IMG/VR virus record: IMGVR_UViG_3300007735_000804
Coordinates: 124,001 to 188,000 of that record
From: a virus
DNA length: 64,000 nt
Reading direction: 5' to 3' (one strand)
Of this stretch, positions 4,915 to 13,750 are shown one piece after another. The notes beneath the pieces are model-generated. The model was not told the origin of the DNA. It worked only from the letters and a program-made list of their open reading frames with translations, and ran no database searches. The stretch's first letter is position 1. Every line of letters starts with the position of its first letter. The translations under genes were made by a program, and so were the position numbers.

Positions 4915-5075
4915 TTTTGTGTGGGTCTCGTGGCATTTTCGCGGGCGGCGGACTTGACAAACTGCGCGTCTTATGATACGCTCGCTAAACTCACAAGTCT
5001 TGGAAGCATTTATAAGGTATTAAACATAAGAACTGGAGAGATTTATAAGATATTAAACGCAAAACTTAACACCTT

Positions 5076-5128
5076 ATTCTCAACGATATTCTCAATTGAT
5101 TCTCAATTATTGCAATCTTATTGAGAAT
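5076..5128. repeat. Cluster of ATTGAGAAT boxes (right copy)
   Basis: Four copies of ATTCTCAA/TTGAGAAT; the central one is the palindrome AATTGATTCTCAATT (5094-5108). Same core as 4344-4398, about 700 bases away. Confidence 0.5.
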
Positions 5129-5188
5129 GTTACAACAAACACAAATATATTTAAAAATACCTTTTTTAATTAAATTTAAGTTAAAATC

Positions 5189-5338
5189 CTATAAAACAGG
5201 TATAATTTCACTATTTGTATAACCTTGACTCTGTATATACTTCTCCCACAGAGATGCGTCTTCAATCGTATAAAAAGTTGCGATTTGTTTGGATTGTTTG
5301 CTCTTTTTGATTTTGGTGTAGATTACTTGGTATTTCAT
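5189..5338 (-). CDS. Small basic protein, 49 aa
   Basis: ATG at 5336-5338, TAG at 5189-5191. MKYQVIYTKIKKSKQSKQIA, then EDASLWEKYIQSQGY. Beta-helix-beta; lysine-rich. Its first 77 bases are also read by the end of 5262-5546 in another frame. Function unknown. Confidence 0.65.
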   Translation of the reverse strand: MKYQVIYTKIKKSKQSKQIATFYTIEDASLWEKYIQSQGYTNSEIIPVL

Positions 5339-5546
5339 AATAATGTAGATGAATGGGTTGTGAATCGTTCCAATGTCTTATGACCCCTGCAATAATGAAT
5401 AGATTAGTAAGAAGATAAGTGCTGAATATAATAGTGCGTATATAAGCAACGTTGTCTGCTTCTCTATCATCATTAGTTGCTTTATTTCCTAATGCTTTTG
5501 CCCATAGTCTCCACATCTTCATAAATTGATTTTCTTGACTTGACAT
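5262..5546 (-). CDS. Single-pass membrane protein, 94 aa
   Basis: After MKMWRLWAKALGNKA (start possible at 5522 instead of 5546) comes a hydrophobic helix, RTIIFSTYLLTNLFIIAGVI. The part after RHWND overlaps 5189-5338 and is low-complexity; it looks like read-through of a lost stop near 5360. Role unknown. Confidence 0.6.
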   Translation of the reverse strand: MSSQENQFMKMWRLWAKALGNKATNDDREADNVAYIRTIIFSTYLLTNLFIIAGVIRHWNDSQPIHLHYYEIPSNLHQNQKEQTIQTNRNFLYD

Positions 5547-5745
5547 AAGTTAATTCACCCCACTGATCAGAATAACACAATACAAGTAATCGATTATTAG
5601 CATGAAAAGGTGCTGCTGATAAATTTAGATCATCCTTTGGTTTAACCTTTGCTTCAATGGTAATGTACTCATTATCCTTATAATACACCCATCCTTCAAT
5701 ATGAGGTTTCCACTTCACATAATCATTCACCTTTGGTTCATACAT
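5482..5745 (-). CDS. Unknown protein, 87 aa
   Basis: MYEPKVNDYVKWKPHIEGWVYYKD: an SH3-like beta-barrel start (DYVKW...GWVYY...YITI). C-terminal SRKSIYEDVE. Recurrent in cyanomyoviruses as I recall it; function unknown. Overlaps both neighbours. Confidence 0.65.
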   Translation of the reverse strand: MYEPKVNDYVKWKPHIEGWVYYKDNEYITIEAKVKPKDDLNLSAAPFHANNRLLVLCYSDQWGELTYVKSRKSIYEDVETMGKSIRK

Positions 5746-6028
5746 ACGCTGCTTCCAATGGAGTTTGTTTGATGATCATAGCAGAATATGGACTTGTATG
5801 CTCTACACTAACAATGTTCCCGACCGTGGATGAGTTAATGGGGGTGTGATATTGTTTTGTTTTGGTATTGTAGAATCCCCAAATACAACGAACGGGATCA
5901 CCAAGATTATAATCAAACCGACGATCATAATGAATCCAGATTGCGATGAGATTGCGCTTAAAGTCAGTTTGCTCATAATGCATTCCTTCTGGAGGTTTGT
6001 GAGGAAATTCAATTGTCACGGACTGCAC
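5738..6028 (-). CDS. Unknown protein, 96 aa
   Basis: Begins MQSVTIEFPHKPPEGMHYEQ; beta-rich, with a RCIWGFYNTKTKQYHTP strand pair. Overlaps 6009-6170 and 5482-5745, consistent with a coupled operon. No family recognised. Confidence 0.65.
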   Translation of the reverse strand: MQSVTIEFPHKPPEGMHYEQTDFKRNLIAIWIHYDRRFDYNLGDPVRCIWGFYNTKTKQYHTPINSSTVGNIVSVEHTSPYSAMIIKQTPLEAAYV

Positions 6029-8729: not shown

Positions 8730-8785
8730 ATTATAGCGCAGAACAGAGGCGATTGCCAAAGAACTGTGCTACTTGTGGAACTGTC
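8730..8785 (-). promoter_or_regulatory. Dyad promoter inside the SprT-like gene
   Basis: TATAAT (8730-8735), 32 bases, dyad GCTACTTGTGGAACTGTC (8768-8785). I found this dyad by stepping 32 bases from the -10, so it acts as an internal test of the spacing rule. Confidence 0.7.
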
Positions 8786-9207
8786 CACCCATTCTTATCA
8801 AATAGGTATTCAAGATATAGGGTTTCTTCTTGCTCCCGTGCCTCTATTTCGTGTGCTTGATGCCAATAGTCCACATTTTCCATGCATTCTTTACCATAAT
8901 ACATTTTTCCGCTTCGCAACCGCAGTGAACCGACTACCCACTGCCGCAGGTGCGTCAGTTCATGCAAAAGGGTTTTTATATACAACTCCTCATCCATATG
9001 GGCATTCAGTTCAATCAGAAAGTGACGGGGACGATAAGTTTCACCCACAACATCACAATACCCATAAACACACTCACGATTTAGACCACGATGCTCAATA
9101 TCCACCATGATCTTGTGTCGTGGAAAGAACCTATTCAGAAACCAAGCGGTAACATCCTCACAGACCCGCTTGCGATAACCATATCCAGAATGCGTGATGT
9201 AAGACAT
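8731..9207 (-). CDS. SprT-like zinc metalloprotease, 158 aa
   Basis: HELTH at residues 82-86 in the context LLHELTHLRQW is a zinc-binding HExxH motif; a later H-x6-E region (HQAHEIEAREQE) may supply the third ligand. Size and context fit SprT/Spartan-type proteases, which act on DNA-bound proteins; in the phage the target is unknown. Start MSYITHSGYG at 9207 preferred over 9228, without strong evidence. The 3' end carries the promoter of the next gene. Confidence 0.7.
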   Translation of the reverse strand: MSYITHSGYGYRKRVCEDVTAWFLNRFFPRHKIMVDIEHRGLNRECVYGYCDVVGETYRPRHFLIELNAHMDEELYIKTLLHELTHLRQWVVGSLRLRSGKMYYGKECMENVDYWHQAHEIEAREQEETLYLEYLFDKNGWTVPQVAQFFGNRLCSAL

Positions 9208-9268
9208 TGACCCCAATGCAAAAACCAAATGAAAGAAGAAATGAAGATGAGTTTGTCAGTCTTGGTCA

Positions 9269-11047: not shown

Positions 11048-11824
11048 TTAGTATAATACCTTCAGCAGCGGATTCTGGTGGTCTTGTGCCACCTCTTCAA
11101 CTGGCACAGCATTGAGGCGCTGTTGAGCAGTCAAAAAGTATTCTTCCTCACGCTCAATACCGATAAAGTTTCTATTTTCTAATTTAGATGCAATTCCAGT
11201 GGTGCCAGCACCCATACATGGGTCAAGCACCAGATCGCCCTCATTCGAGAATGTTCTAATCAACCAGCGATAAAGATCAACGGGTTTCTGTGTAGGATGG
11301 TGCTTACCTTCACCCTCCGCAGTCTTAAAATAGATAACGCTGCGAGGATACCTCAACCCACTGTCATTCTTAACATGAACTGCCTTTGTTTGCACACCAT
11401 ATGCTTCAGTGTCTCTTACAGCAGTTCCCTTATCATAAGGAGTTCCTTGTGTCATTTGAGGATTATATGTGGGTTGTTTCTTATAAAACACCACAATATC
11501 TTCATGAGCACGAAGAGGTTGCTTTTTGGCATTCAGATAACCTGTTGCTTTTGATTTCTCCCACACCATTGTGTACTTGAAGTCTTTATAATTTGAAGCA
11601 ATCAGAACACTTGTAAATGGTTGTGCTGCTGTTGAAATGATGGGGCAAGTTGGTTTACAAATATAATCCACAAGTTCCCAAAATCGCGGGTAATCAATGA
11701 TTGTGTCCCATTCATTTCTTTTATTCAGAGTTCCATAAGGAAAATCTGTCAATAACAAATCAATGCTCTGGGATGCAAGATTACCCAGAACATCAAACAT
11801 ATCTCTATTGTATAACTGACTCAT
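11048..11824 (-). CDS. Adenine/cytosine-N4 DNA methyltransferase (beta-type order), 258 aa
   Basis: Catalytic motif IV appears as TDFPYG at residues 26-31 (DPPY type), and the SAM-binding motif I as DPCMGAGTTG at about 201-210, followed by NRNFIGIE. Motif IV before motif I is the beta-class order of N6-adenine or N4-cytosine methyltransferases. LRAHEDIVVFYKKQPTYNPQ and HPTQKP are typical of this family. Start MSQLYNRDM at 11824 overlaps the endonuclease stop by four bases, so the two are one operon. Likely protects the endonuclease's site. Confidence 0.85.
   Translation of the reverse strand: MSQLYNRDMFDVLGNLASQSIDLLLTDFPYGTLNKRNEWDTIIDYPRFWELVDYICKPTCPIISTAAQPFTSVLIASNYKDFKYTMVWEKSKATGYLNAKKQPLRAHEDIVVFYKKQPTYNPQMTQGTPYDKGTAVRDTEAYGVQTKAVHVKNDSGLRYPRSVIYFKTAEGEGKHHPTQKPVDLYRWLIRTFSNEGDLVLDPCMGAGTTGIASKLENRNFIGIEREEEYFLTAQQRLNAVPVEEVAQDHQNPLLKVLY
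11050..11105 (-). promoter_or_regulatory. Dyad promoter
   Basis: TATACT (11050-11055), 32 bases, dyad GCCACCTCTTCAACTGGC (11088-11105). It is inside the 3' end of the methyltransferase gene and drives 10614-11024. Confidence 0.7.
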
Positions 11825-12399
11825 TGATTCAACCACTCTACAAATTTGTTCACTTCTTCAACATCAAGTTGAAAATCAGCATTATACTGCTCCATGTAAA
11901 TTGCACGTTGGGCATTACGCTTTTTATGCTGATTGATAATGAATACTTTAACTTCTTTACCAGTCATTTTCTTAAAATATGCGAGATAATAATTAAAAGA
12001 ATCTTGTGATACACATTCTTGACCAGCAAGAATTGCATACTCTACACCATCAGGCACATCAGGCGATGCATCCAATTCAATAAAATCTAACACTGCACGT
12101 TTAAGATAGCAAGCATCCAAATAGCATTTGGATTCTACTGCTTTAACCATCACACCATCACGGTAGATATGCTTATCAACCTGCAAATTCTTCAACGAAA
12201 CTCCATCAATCTCTTCTGTTCTCTTATAATCATTCTTCTTTGCTTTTAGACTAATGTTGGTACAAATGCGTTGAATCAAATTTTCAAAAATTACACCAGA
12301 TCCATTTCTTGCTTTGCCACCGCCACCAATTAAATGAAGACGTGGAAGATCTTTTATCTCTTGATTATAAGTTTCAATGATAGTGTCAAGATTAGACAT
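11821..12399 (-). CDS. Putative type II restriction endonuclease, 192 aa
   Basis: A PD-(D/E)XK-like active site is visible: Asp75 in LQVDKHIYR and Glu89-x-Lys91 in AVESKCYLD. The N-terminal ARNGSGVIFENLI helix also resembles restriction enzymes. It is coupled by ATGA overlap to a DNA methyltransferase and lies next to a second methyltransferase, which supports a restriction-modification role. Recognition site unknown. It could instead be another nuclease of the fold that attacks host DNA. It has its own dyad promoter. Confidence 0.65.
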   Translation of the reverse strand: MSNLDTIIETYNQEIKDLPRLHLIGGGGKARNGSGVIFENLIQRICTNISLKAKKNDYKRTEEIDGVSLKNLQVDKHIYRDGVMVKAVESKCYLDACYLKRAVLDFIELDASPDVPDGVEYAILAGQECVSQDSFNYYLAYFKKMTGKEVKVFIINQHKKRNAQRAIYMEQYNADFQLDVEEVNKFVEWLNQ

Positions 12400-12422: not shown

Positions 12423-12478
12423 ACTATAGGGTAAAATGAGGAAGAACAGGGAATAAAGTGGTCAGTTGTCACACTGTC
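12423..12478 (-). promoter_or_regulatory. Dyad promoter of the endonuclease-methyltransferase operon
   Basis: TATAGT (12423-12428), 32 bases, dyad GTCAGTTGTCACACTGTC (12461-12478). The dyad was predicted from the spacing and then found. It overlaps the stop of the upstream methyltransferase fragment. Confidence 0.65.
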
Positions 12479-12915
12479 ACACCAAATGCCAAAACTCCAA
12501 TCGGTTTGCCAAAACTGTAATCGTATGTCAGAGCATCGTGGCAAACATAGTGGGGATGATTTACTGACACACCTAACCTCTCACACATTTCAGCATGATT
12601 ATCTTCCATCAATTCAACAGCATAAAGCATATGATCCAAGATGTGTTGTAAATCATGATATTCAAGAAGTTTATCACGCAAAGCAATCATAAAGTTACCA
12701 GAACCTGCCGAGTTATCAAGAAACTTGGCATTTGGATCTTTCAACTTCTCTTCTGGCAAACTATTCACCATCTGACGACAAACTTCAAGAGGTGTGAATA
12801 CTTCTTGAGTAACTTTGATTCGTTCATCAGATCTTTCAACTGAAGACCCAACTTCTTGATTGTGTTTGTTCTTTTTGTTTTTCGTAGAGTTCACAGATTT
12901 CACCTTTTGAGACAT
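12469..12915 (-). CDS. N-terminal (SAM-binding) half of a split adenine methyltransferase, 148 aa
   Basis: After a lysine-rich N-terminus (MSQKVKSVNSTKNKKNKHNQ) comes VFTPLEVCRQMV (motif X-like, residues 39-50) and FLDNSAGSGNF (motif I, about 65-75), then YAVELMEDN (motif II). This is the SAM-binding half of a gamma-class N6-adenine methyltransferase. The protein ends just where motif IV (NPPY) is expected. That motif starts the gene immediately upstream, 12836-13486, so the two halves are encoded in reversed order. Overlaps it by 80 bases in another frame. Confidence 0.75.
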   Translation of the reverse strand: MSQKVKSVNSTKNKKNKHNQEVGSSVERSDERIKVTQEVFTPLEVCRQMVNSLPEEKLKDPNAKFLDNSAGSGNFMIALRDKLLEYHDLQHILDHMLYAVELMEDNHAEMCERLGVSVNHPHYVCHDALTYDYSFGKPIGVLAFGVTV

Positions 12916-13486
12916 GATTACGCCCATTTGTATTTGCACTAATTTTAACAAGATCTTCTTCAAGAGATAATAAAGTTTCAATAACCTTTTGGTCTCTTGC
13001 ATTCACAAAATAATGATCCAATTGCTTTGTGACTTTATTGATTGACATCTTTTCTTTCTTCGGCAGATACTTCTCAAAGTTATCTGTGAACATTTTACCA
13101 GCGTTACCAGTGCGAATGATAACTAGGTTGGCACGGTGTCGGTTCTCATAGTTCAAAAACTCAAAATCTGGATGACTTGTTTTCTCTATAATGATTGTTC
13201 TTGGTCTATCACCCAGTTGCCAAGTTTGAATTGATGCGTGAATACCTTGTGGAAATGTTTTCTCATCACAATCAACATCTTTTACGCAGTGAAGATATGA
13301 ATTACCCTTGATGATTTTATTCTGAACCGATGTCTTGCGAATTGAGTTTGGTAGAATTTCAAGAATGATACCATCCTTCTTGATGTGAAAAGATGACTTG
13401 ATGAGAAAATCAGTGGCAAGTTGTCCACAATTACCATAAGGAAAATTGCCAATAATCACATCAAAATCATTCATATCAAAAGTCAC
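12836..13486 (-). CDS. C-terminal (catalytic and target-recognition) half of a split adenine methyltransferase, 216 aa
   Basis: GTG start at 13484-13486. The protein opens directly with FDVIIGNFPYG (motif IV, NPPY type, at residues 8-18), followed by a fold typical of motifs V-VIII and a target-recognition region (LVIIRTGNAGKMFTDNF). No SAM-binding motif I is present; that is in the downstream gene 12469-12915. Both halves probably assemble into one enzyme. The breakpoints share a TGTGAC sequence. Promoter TTGCAA-N17-TATAAT lies directly upstream. Confidence 0.75.
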   Translation of the reverse strand: MTFDMNDFDVIIGNFPYGNCGQLATDFLIKSSFHIKKDGIILEILPNSIRKTSVQNKIIKGNSYLHCVKDVDCDEKTFPQGIHASIQTWQLGDRPRTIIIEKTSHPDFEFLNYENRHRANLVIIRTGNAGKMFTDNFEKYLPKKEKMSINKVTKQLDHYFVNARDQKVIETLLSLEEDLVKISANTNGRNHVSKGEICELYEKQKEQTQSRSWVFS

Positions 13487-13497
13487 AAGTTATGGAC

Positions 13498-13526
13498 ATT
13501 ATAAAACCCTCTTACATTTTTTGCAA
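13498..13526 (-). promoter_or_regulatory. Sigma70-type promoter
   Basis: TTGCAA (13521-13526), 17 bases, TATAAT (13498-13503). The start codon is 11 bases below the -10, so the transcript leader would be very short. Confidence 0.55.
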
Positions 13527-13532
13527 GAGGAT
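13504..13532 (-). terminator. Possible terminator downstream of CP12
   Basis: On the minus strand CCTCTTGCA-AAAAA-TGTAAGAGG is followed by GTTTT. It overlaps the promoter of the methyltransferase half. Confidence 0.5.
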
Positions 13533-13537
13533 AATTA

Positions 13538-13750
13538 TCAATTGTCGTAGATTTTACACTCCGCAGCATCAGGATGTGTATCACAATAAAGTTCAAGCGG
13601 AGTTGGATCATATGAATCTTCCGGATGATGTTCTTTATATACTTTCAGTGCTTCTAGTTCCTCTTCTGTGTGTCTCCGTGCTTGTGGAGAAATTGTTGGG
13701 TCACTCAGAAGATCCTCATCTTTCTGAATGTGCTGGTTGATGTTTTCCAT
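13538..13750 (-). CDS. cp12: CP12 Calvin-cycle inhibitor, 70 aa
   Basis: The C-terminus reads LELYCDTHPDAAECKIYDN, the CP12 signature with a cysteine pair (C56, C65) and the final YD. CP12 binds GAPDH and phosphoribulokinase and switches off the Calvin cycle; cyanophage copies are thought to redirect carbon and NADPH to nucleotide synthesis (established for cyanophages generally). The N-terminal half (SPQARRHTEEELEALKVYKEHHP) replaces the N-terminal cysteine pair of some plant forms. A NATAAATA late-type promoter lies 20 bases upstream. Confidence 0.85.
   Translation of the reverse strand: MENINQHIQKDEDLLSDPTISPQARRHTEEELEALKVYKEHHPEDSYDPTPLELYCDTHPDAAECKIYDN

Follow-up and report, generated by a model that had tools for sequence, protein, structure and literature searches.

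Two overlapping genes of a cyanophage probably each encode one half of a gamma-type DNA methyltransferase, which would be assembled in trans from a catalytic and a SAM-binding polypeptide. Both genes are located in the window, by which we mean the whole 64,000-nucleotide stretch of the IMG/VR record IMGVR_UViG_3300007735_000804 that was analysed (Table 1). The split arrangement is widespread in T4-like cyanophages and both halves are under strong purifying selection (dN/dS 0.05-0.10). The initial annotation had read the genes as halves of a gamma-type enzyme in permuted order, and this is borne out by a conserved gene order, by purifying selection and by fusion proteins of Aeromonas phages that carry both halves in the same permuted order.

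The gene pair in the window

Both ORFs are present on the minus strand where the initial annotation had placed them. As it had described, the upstream ORF (12836-13486) carries no SAM-binding motif and opens with the catalytic motif IV FDVIIGNFPYG, and the downstream ORF (12469-12915) contains motifs X (EVFTPLEV) and I (FLDNSAGSGNF) and stops before motif IV. The FDVIIGNFPYG of the upstream ORF lies eight residues from its GTG start. Motif II (YAVELMEDN) and motif III (CHDALTYDYSFG) could also be assigned in the SAM-binding half, and an alignment of 14 relatives places the end of its motifs at the boundary between strands beta3 and beta4. For the catalytic gene the ATG at 13474 (212 aa) is the more likely start compared to the GTG at 13486 (216 aa), judging from its conservation in the related loci L005 and L006. 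The SAM-half gene has three candidate starts, ATG 12927 (kept in L005 and L006), ATG 12915 and GTG 12894, giving a protein of about 140-150 aa. The two genes do overlap in different frames as reported, but the size of 80 bases given for the overlap becomes a range, as the SAM-half start is uncertain.

Table 1: Features of the split methyltransferase locus (window coordinates, except for the first row).
Feature	Position	Strand	Evidence
Window	124001-188000 of the 213,274-base virus record		
Catalytic-half gene (motif IV FDVIIGNFPYG onwards and target-recognition region), 212 aa	12836..13474	-	ORF calls; phrog_5172 92-284; start kept in L005/L006; dN/dS 0.07-0.10
SAM-binding-half gene (carries motifs X, I, II and III and stops ahead of motif IV)	12469..12927	-	phrog_4376 1.2e-74; N6_Mtase 0.001; alignment of 14 relatives; dN/dS 0.05-0.08
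Region shared by both genes in different frames; 59-92 bases, according to the start codon used	12836..12915	-	ORF calls; overlap or near contact in 49/58 relative loci
Sigma-70-like promoter immediately in front of the catalytic gene (TTGCAA-17-TATAAT)	13498..13526	-	
Terminator-like hairpin with T-tail, in the gap that separates the CP12 gene from the catalytic gene	13506..13532	-	

In profile searches the catalytic half corresponds only to residues 92-284 of phrog_5172 (1.3e-48) and shows a weak Eco57I match at motif IV, and a profile built from relatives of the catalytic core matches CamA (3e-6) and M.TaqI (1.4e-4). Compared to the class pattern (D/N/S)PP(Y/F/W), motif IV reads NFPY in the window and NYPY or NPPY in relatives. 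The SAM half matches nearly the full length of phrog_4376, a stand-alone family of 134 aa, and gives a weak hit to N6_Mtase (18.9 bits) just below the curated cut-off of 20.4. Neither half matches PF01555 (N6_N4_Mtase) at an E-value of 1, a family that is matched by the neighbouring gene at 11048-11836. Full-length alignment of each half with an independent family had been named as a result that would speak against one enzyme; the halves do match distinct PHROGs, but these families are themselves the halves of one enzyme. The dN/dS values of both genes come from comparisons of the window to its relatives L005 and L006. In a search for a bacterial source just one MAG contig was found to encode a close relative of the SAM half. 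The TATAAT upstream of the catalytic gene is common to the window, L005 and L006, and promoter-like matches are no more numerous in this region than expected by chance.

Conservation in other phages

In IMG/VR we collected 63 distinct loci with the SAM half, 58 of which have a catalytic ORF in reach, the remaining five having less than 2 kb of upstream sequence. In all 58 the catalytic ORF is located upstream on the same strand and the reversed order never occurs. The two genes touch or overlap in 49 of these loci and are about 550 bases apart in the other nine, leaving room for one gene. Two catalytic genes per SAM half are rare, being found upstream in four of the 63 loci and in a few whole records. 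The same pair is found in the isolates P-SSM2 (PSSM2_036/037), S-SKS1 and S-CAM7, and in Bellamy and MA01 a gene or a gap separates the catalytic gene from the SAM half. The arrangement had been called unusual for a cyanophage, which these 58 loci and the isolates contradict. As the same pair recurs in many genomes and shows low dN/dS values, it is real, selected and no assembly error.

Outside the cyanophages, the Prevotella phage Lak-A2 encodes a stand-alone SAM half that also stops just before motif IV and is preceded on the same strand by a catalytic ORF that lacks a canonical SAM motif. Further ORFs resembling catalytic halves lie opposite the Lak SAM half (L125, Lak-A2 499560-500440 and 500685-501360, plus strand), one of which opens right at motif IV (SNAPY) and has no obvious start; these are possibly additional copies or fragments.

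Natural fusions and structure models

Of the sequence evidence, the Aeromonas phages provide the strongest case for a SAM half that completes the catalytic half. In Aeh1 (ORF084c), ZPAH1, G2 and copies from IMG/VR both are part of one chain, with the catalytic half followed by the SAM half. These fused proteins begin one to six residues before motif IV without any other N-half, and in the catalytic tree they nest within the diversity of the cyanophage sequences. An AlphaFold model of the natural fusion reached a pLDDT of 65 with a partial match to M.TaqI, which is too weak for conclusions on packing. The model of the long catalytic ORF from L013, in which a degenerate N-half of the VPxDAFG type (see below) is in place, shows a complete class I methyltransferase (pLDDT 83, pTM 0.77) and matches class I methyltransferases including N6 enzymes; this pseudo-N-half is therefore predicted to still fold as a Rossmann N-half.

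Degenerate N-halves and exchange of modules

The catalytic ORFs located beside a SAM half range from about 187 to 1,150 residues, and the longer ones bear GIY-YIG-like and/or ResIII helicase domains. Where GIY-YIG nucleases have Y, YIG, R and E, the alignment of these long relatives, which does not include the window, shows invariant I-Y, G-x-T, R and E, and L023 additionally has a T5orf172 match (0.00035). By eye we recognised five types of N-half in the long ORFs (GDPSG, VPxDAFG, FDAFLIL, AKEP and ALSG). A canonical motif I is present in none of the 32 non-redundant long catalytic ORFs, in 84 of 89 SAM halves (strict pattern) and in all 12 in-order controls, the latter taken from phage contigs only. 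Directly after its SAM half, L006 contains such a relative, complete and in order, whose motif I is intact (4964-5863); 22 viral loci similar to it were found and used as controls. A stand-alone SAM half is lacking from the phage record that contains the XbC2-type in-order relative, whose motif I is intact as well.

Since the catalytic tree requires 16 or more switches between classes of N-half, N-modules and catalytic modules must have been exchanged, and the junction of this exchange carries a methionine just before motif IV. The SAM halves are 57-98% identical to each other, the catalytic modules as low as 10%, and in L077 compared with L078 SAM halves of 95% identity stand beside catalytic modules of 17% identity. 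The best reading of these sequences is that a constant SAM-binding subunit would complete interchangeable catalytic subunits in trans.

The methionine before motif IV

A methionine located a few residues before the phenylalanine of motif IV is present in all 64 distinct catalytic ORFs, 51 of which have a long upstream part. Among the 32 non-redundant long ORFs it occupies position -2 in 29 cases and position -3 or -4 in the other three, being as constant there as the catalytic asparagine and proline, and it is absent at this place from all 12 in-order relatives with intact motif I. These controls represent a narrow group of phage enzymes, which weakens the comparison. In the short genes this methionine is likely the start codon. 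In the long genes the codon choice around it reduces RNA structure in comparison with synonymous shuffling (+0.69 kcal/mol, p 0.003); the corresponding value is -0.67 for other in-frame ATGs (difference p 1.6e-4) and -0.38 for the equivalent codons of the in-order controls. Only this synonymous-corrected test was kept, because the raw RNA structure is equally low at the equivalent codons of the controls. Shine-Dalgarno pairing at the internal methionine was not significant (p 0.20), a test that is uninformative as its positive controls, the starts of the SAM halves, lack such a signal too. Taken from these sequence features, initiation at the internal methionine of the long genes has not quite an even chance of being real. 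That one restriction gene can give two products through an in-frame internal start is known from McrB with its forms McrB-L and McrB-S (PMC3874153), but McrB is the GTPase of a modification-dependent system and not a methyltransferase, and the second product of the phage family is a prediction.

It is also quite possible that the methionine is not a start at all, being instead a structural residue at the beginning of strand beta4 or the relic of a gene boundary, which would be retained because the catalytic modules change places frequently and occur on their own in some cases. The long ORFs would then yield one product that displaces its pseudo-N-half to recruit the SAM half. Its presence at -2 to -4 in 32 out of 32 non-redundant long ORFs, the Shine-Dalgarno result and the frequent exchange of modules at exactly this junction are consistent with such an explanation. 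A structural residue would not be expected to vary in its distance to motif IV between one and six residues, as seen in the short and fused genes, in which it is the likely start, and leucine, isoleucine or valine replace the methionine in none of the 64 ORFs. The codon choice around it, which lowers RNA structure, also argues for a start.

If internal initiation does occur, the family might tentatively be regarded as a modular phage restriction-modification system, in which one SAM subunit acts in trans on interchangeable catalytic modules and a conserved internal start gives two proteins of identical specificity, a long one for restriction and a short one that is a methyltransferase subunit. 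The long protein would then consist of a nuclease and a pseudo-methyltransferase with a dead SAM site.

Proposed mechanism

For the assembly, the base methylated, internal initiation and the biological role we propose a model that is deduced from sequence. The 212-aa chain would contribute the catalytic domain from strand beta4 and its motif IV onwards, together with the target-recognition region. Strands beta1-3, which bear motifs X, I, II and III, would come from the chain of about 140-150 aa, which would bind SAM. By docking on beta4 the SAM half could rebuild the ordinary methyltransferase fold, with the chain break just before motif IV. Most likely the base methylated is adenine at N6, an assignment taken from the family, as motif IV is NFPY and not NPPY. 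Throughout the family the SAM-binding protein would be the constant part beside exchangeable catalytic and target-recognition subunits. The long genes may give a long restriction-type product and a short catalytic product starting at the internal methionine, the latter pairing with the SAM-binding protein. Where a pseudo-N-half is present it sits where the SAM half belongs, and it would have to be displaced or left out. The long product of the relatives may be a restriction partner that shares the recognition domain. The window phage appears to retain the gene for the short product and the SAM-half gene only, and its enzyme is thus most likely a solitary methyltransferase marking the phage DNA, perhaps as a protection against restriction by the host or by rival phages.

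Relation to known methyltransferases

The two genes of P-SSM2 (PSSM2_036 and PSSM2_037) and other cyanophage homologues show the same order and small overlap and a catalytic ORF starting at motif IV, but in their records these proteins (phrog_5172, phrog_4376) are annotated as hypothetical and are not recognised as one enzyme. Sequence relatives of both halves are the gamma-class N6-adenine enzymes M.TaqI, CamA and the Eco57I family, which are single chains with the motif order X-I-III-IV. As this order is absent in the window, where two genes carry complementary motifs and the catalytic half comes first, we describe the pair as a split and permuted derivative and not as a member of the gamma class. 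In beta-class amino-methyltransferases the motif order is catalytic motif, target-recognition domain and SAM site, which equals the gene order in the window, but the window sequences are gamma-like. Two polypeptides are also known for the m5C methyltransferases M.AquI and M.EcoHK31I, of which the former is cut in the variable region and the small chain of the latter comprises motif IX only (PMC3404938); these are cytosine-C5 enzymes, however, in which SAM site and catalytic motif are not separated. A natural permutation of the motif order is found in M.BssHII-type enzymes, where the new N-terminus lies between motif VIII and the target-recognition domain in the variable region (PMC5944983), but they are single-chain m5C enzymes. 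Unlike in the m5C enzymes of both these reports, the split in the phage pair separates the SAM site from the catalytic motif, and in the open-access literature we found no description of this arrangement.

Our analysis thus suggests a likely function for hypothetical genes known in cyanophages since P-SSM2 and defines an enzyme family that can be tested. If the SAM subunit is constant and its partners are exchanged, phages could alter their methylation specificity by swapping one short gene, and two products of one gene may keep the specificities of restriction and modification matched. Split methyltransferases have been engineered for targeted methylation, and the phage pair could serve as a natural model for them.

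Neighbouring genes and alternative functions

Downstream of the pair, an ORF similar to PD-(D/E)xK nucleases (11821-12399, minus strand) overlaps the beta-class N6/N4 methyltransferase gene (11048-11836, minus strand). It is unlikely that the split enzyme forms one restriction-modification system together with this nuclease-like gene and beta-class methyltransferase (11048-12399), even if they are adjacent on the same strand and a nuclease-like gene adjoins the SAM half in Bellamy, ACG-2014f and some other loci. In L005, which has a split enzyme of about 95% identity, the nuclease-like gene is another one and the beta-class methyltransferase is only 47% identical, showing that the cassette moves independently. 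The L005 nuclease-like gene (from 4685) encodes a different protein, and the neighbouring pair represents an exchangeable restriction-modification cassette. In Bellamy (L103 2172-4387) and ACG-2014f (L102 4986-8838) a helicase is encoded near the nuclease-like gene beside the SAM half, which suggests multi-gene restriction systems on the same SAM subunit.

That the SAM half is a free SAM-binding protein, acting as SAM sink or regulator next to a decaying catalytic ORF, appears very improbable to us. Phages do make anti-restriction proteins that degrade SAM, and in ACG-2014f the SAM half has no adjacent catalytic gene; however, this phage holds catalytic genes elsewhere in its genome. A decaying ORF is also difficult to reconcile with the dN/dS of the catalytic half, and the invariant order in 58 loci, the natural fusion and the end of the motifs at the beta3/beta4 boundary all speak for a SAM half that belongs to an enzyme.

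Origin of the pair

The catalytic gene of the window is best read as the 5'-truncated descendant of a longer gene, in which a GIY-YIG-like domain and a pseudo-SAM half were still present. The group of the window, which has no N-half, is nested in the catalytic tree within a supported group with S-SKS1 and L007, both of which carry a GIY-YIG-like domain and a pseudo-N-half ahead of motif IV. The residues before motif IV in the window (FDM-ND-FDV) also resemble those of the long relatives (FFDM-KKK-FDV). No match to a GIY-YIG domain of this kind was found elsewhere in the record of the window.

The initial annotation had proposed a tandem duplication followed by loss of the outer halves, based on a TGTGAC at both breakpoints. 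The hexamer is indeed present (13487; 12481 and 12473) and occurs at both ends in the 95%-identical L005 as well, but it is absent at the corresponding places in L006, L007, L002 and P-SSM2, and random pairs of segments from the window share a 6-mer by chance in 32% (40 nt) or 86% (90 nt) of cases. It is no evidence of duplication, and this origin was dropped, as the relatives show a long-lived separate SAM-half gene. An artefact unique to the window contig, be it a frameshift, a misassembly or a tandem duplication, might be suspected from the short overlap in different frames and the TGTGAC at both ends, but its probability is practically nil, as L005, L006, many contigs and isolate genomes have the same layout, and these independent genomes rule out the assembly error at the junction that had been named as a refuting case.

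Directly upstream of the catalytic gene the window encodes CP12, an inhibitor of the Calvin cycle (13538-13750, minus strand, E-value 7e-13). Further downstream, an ORF at 8731-9228 (minus strand) weakly matches metallopeptidase families (DUF6782, SprT-like).
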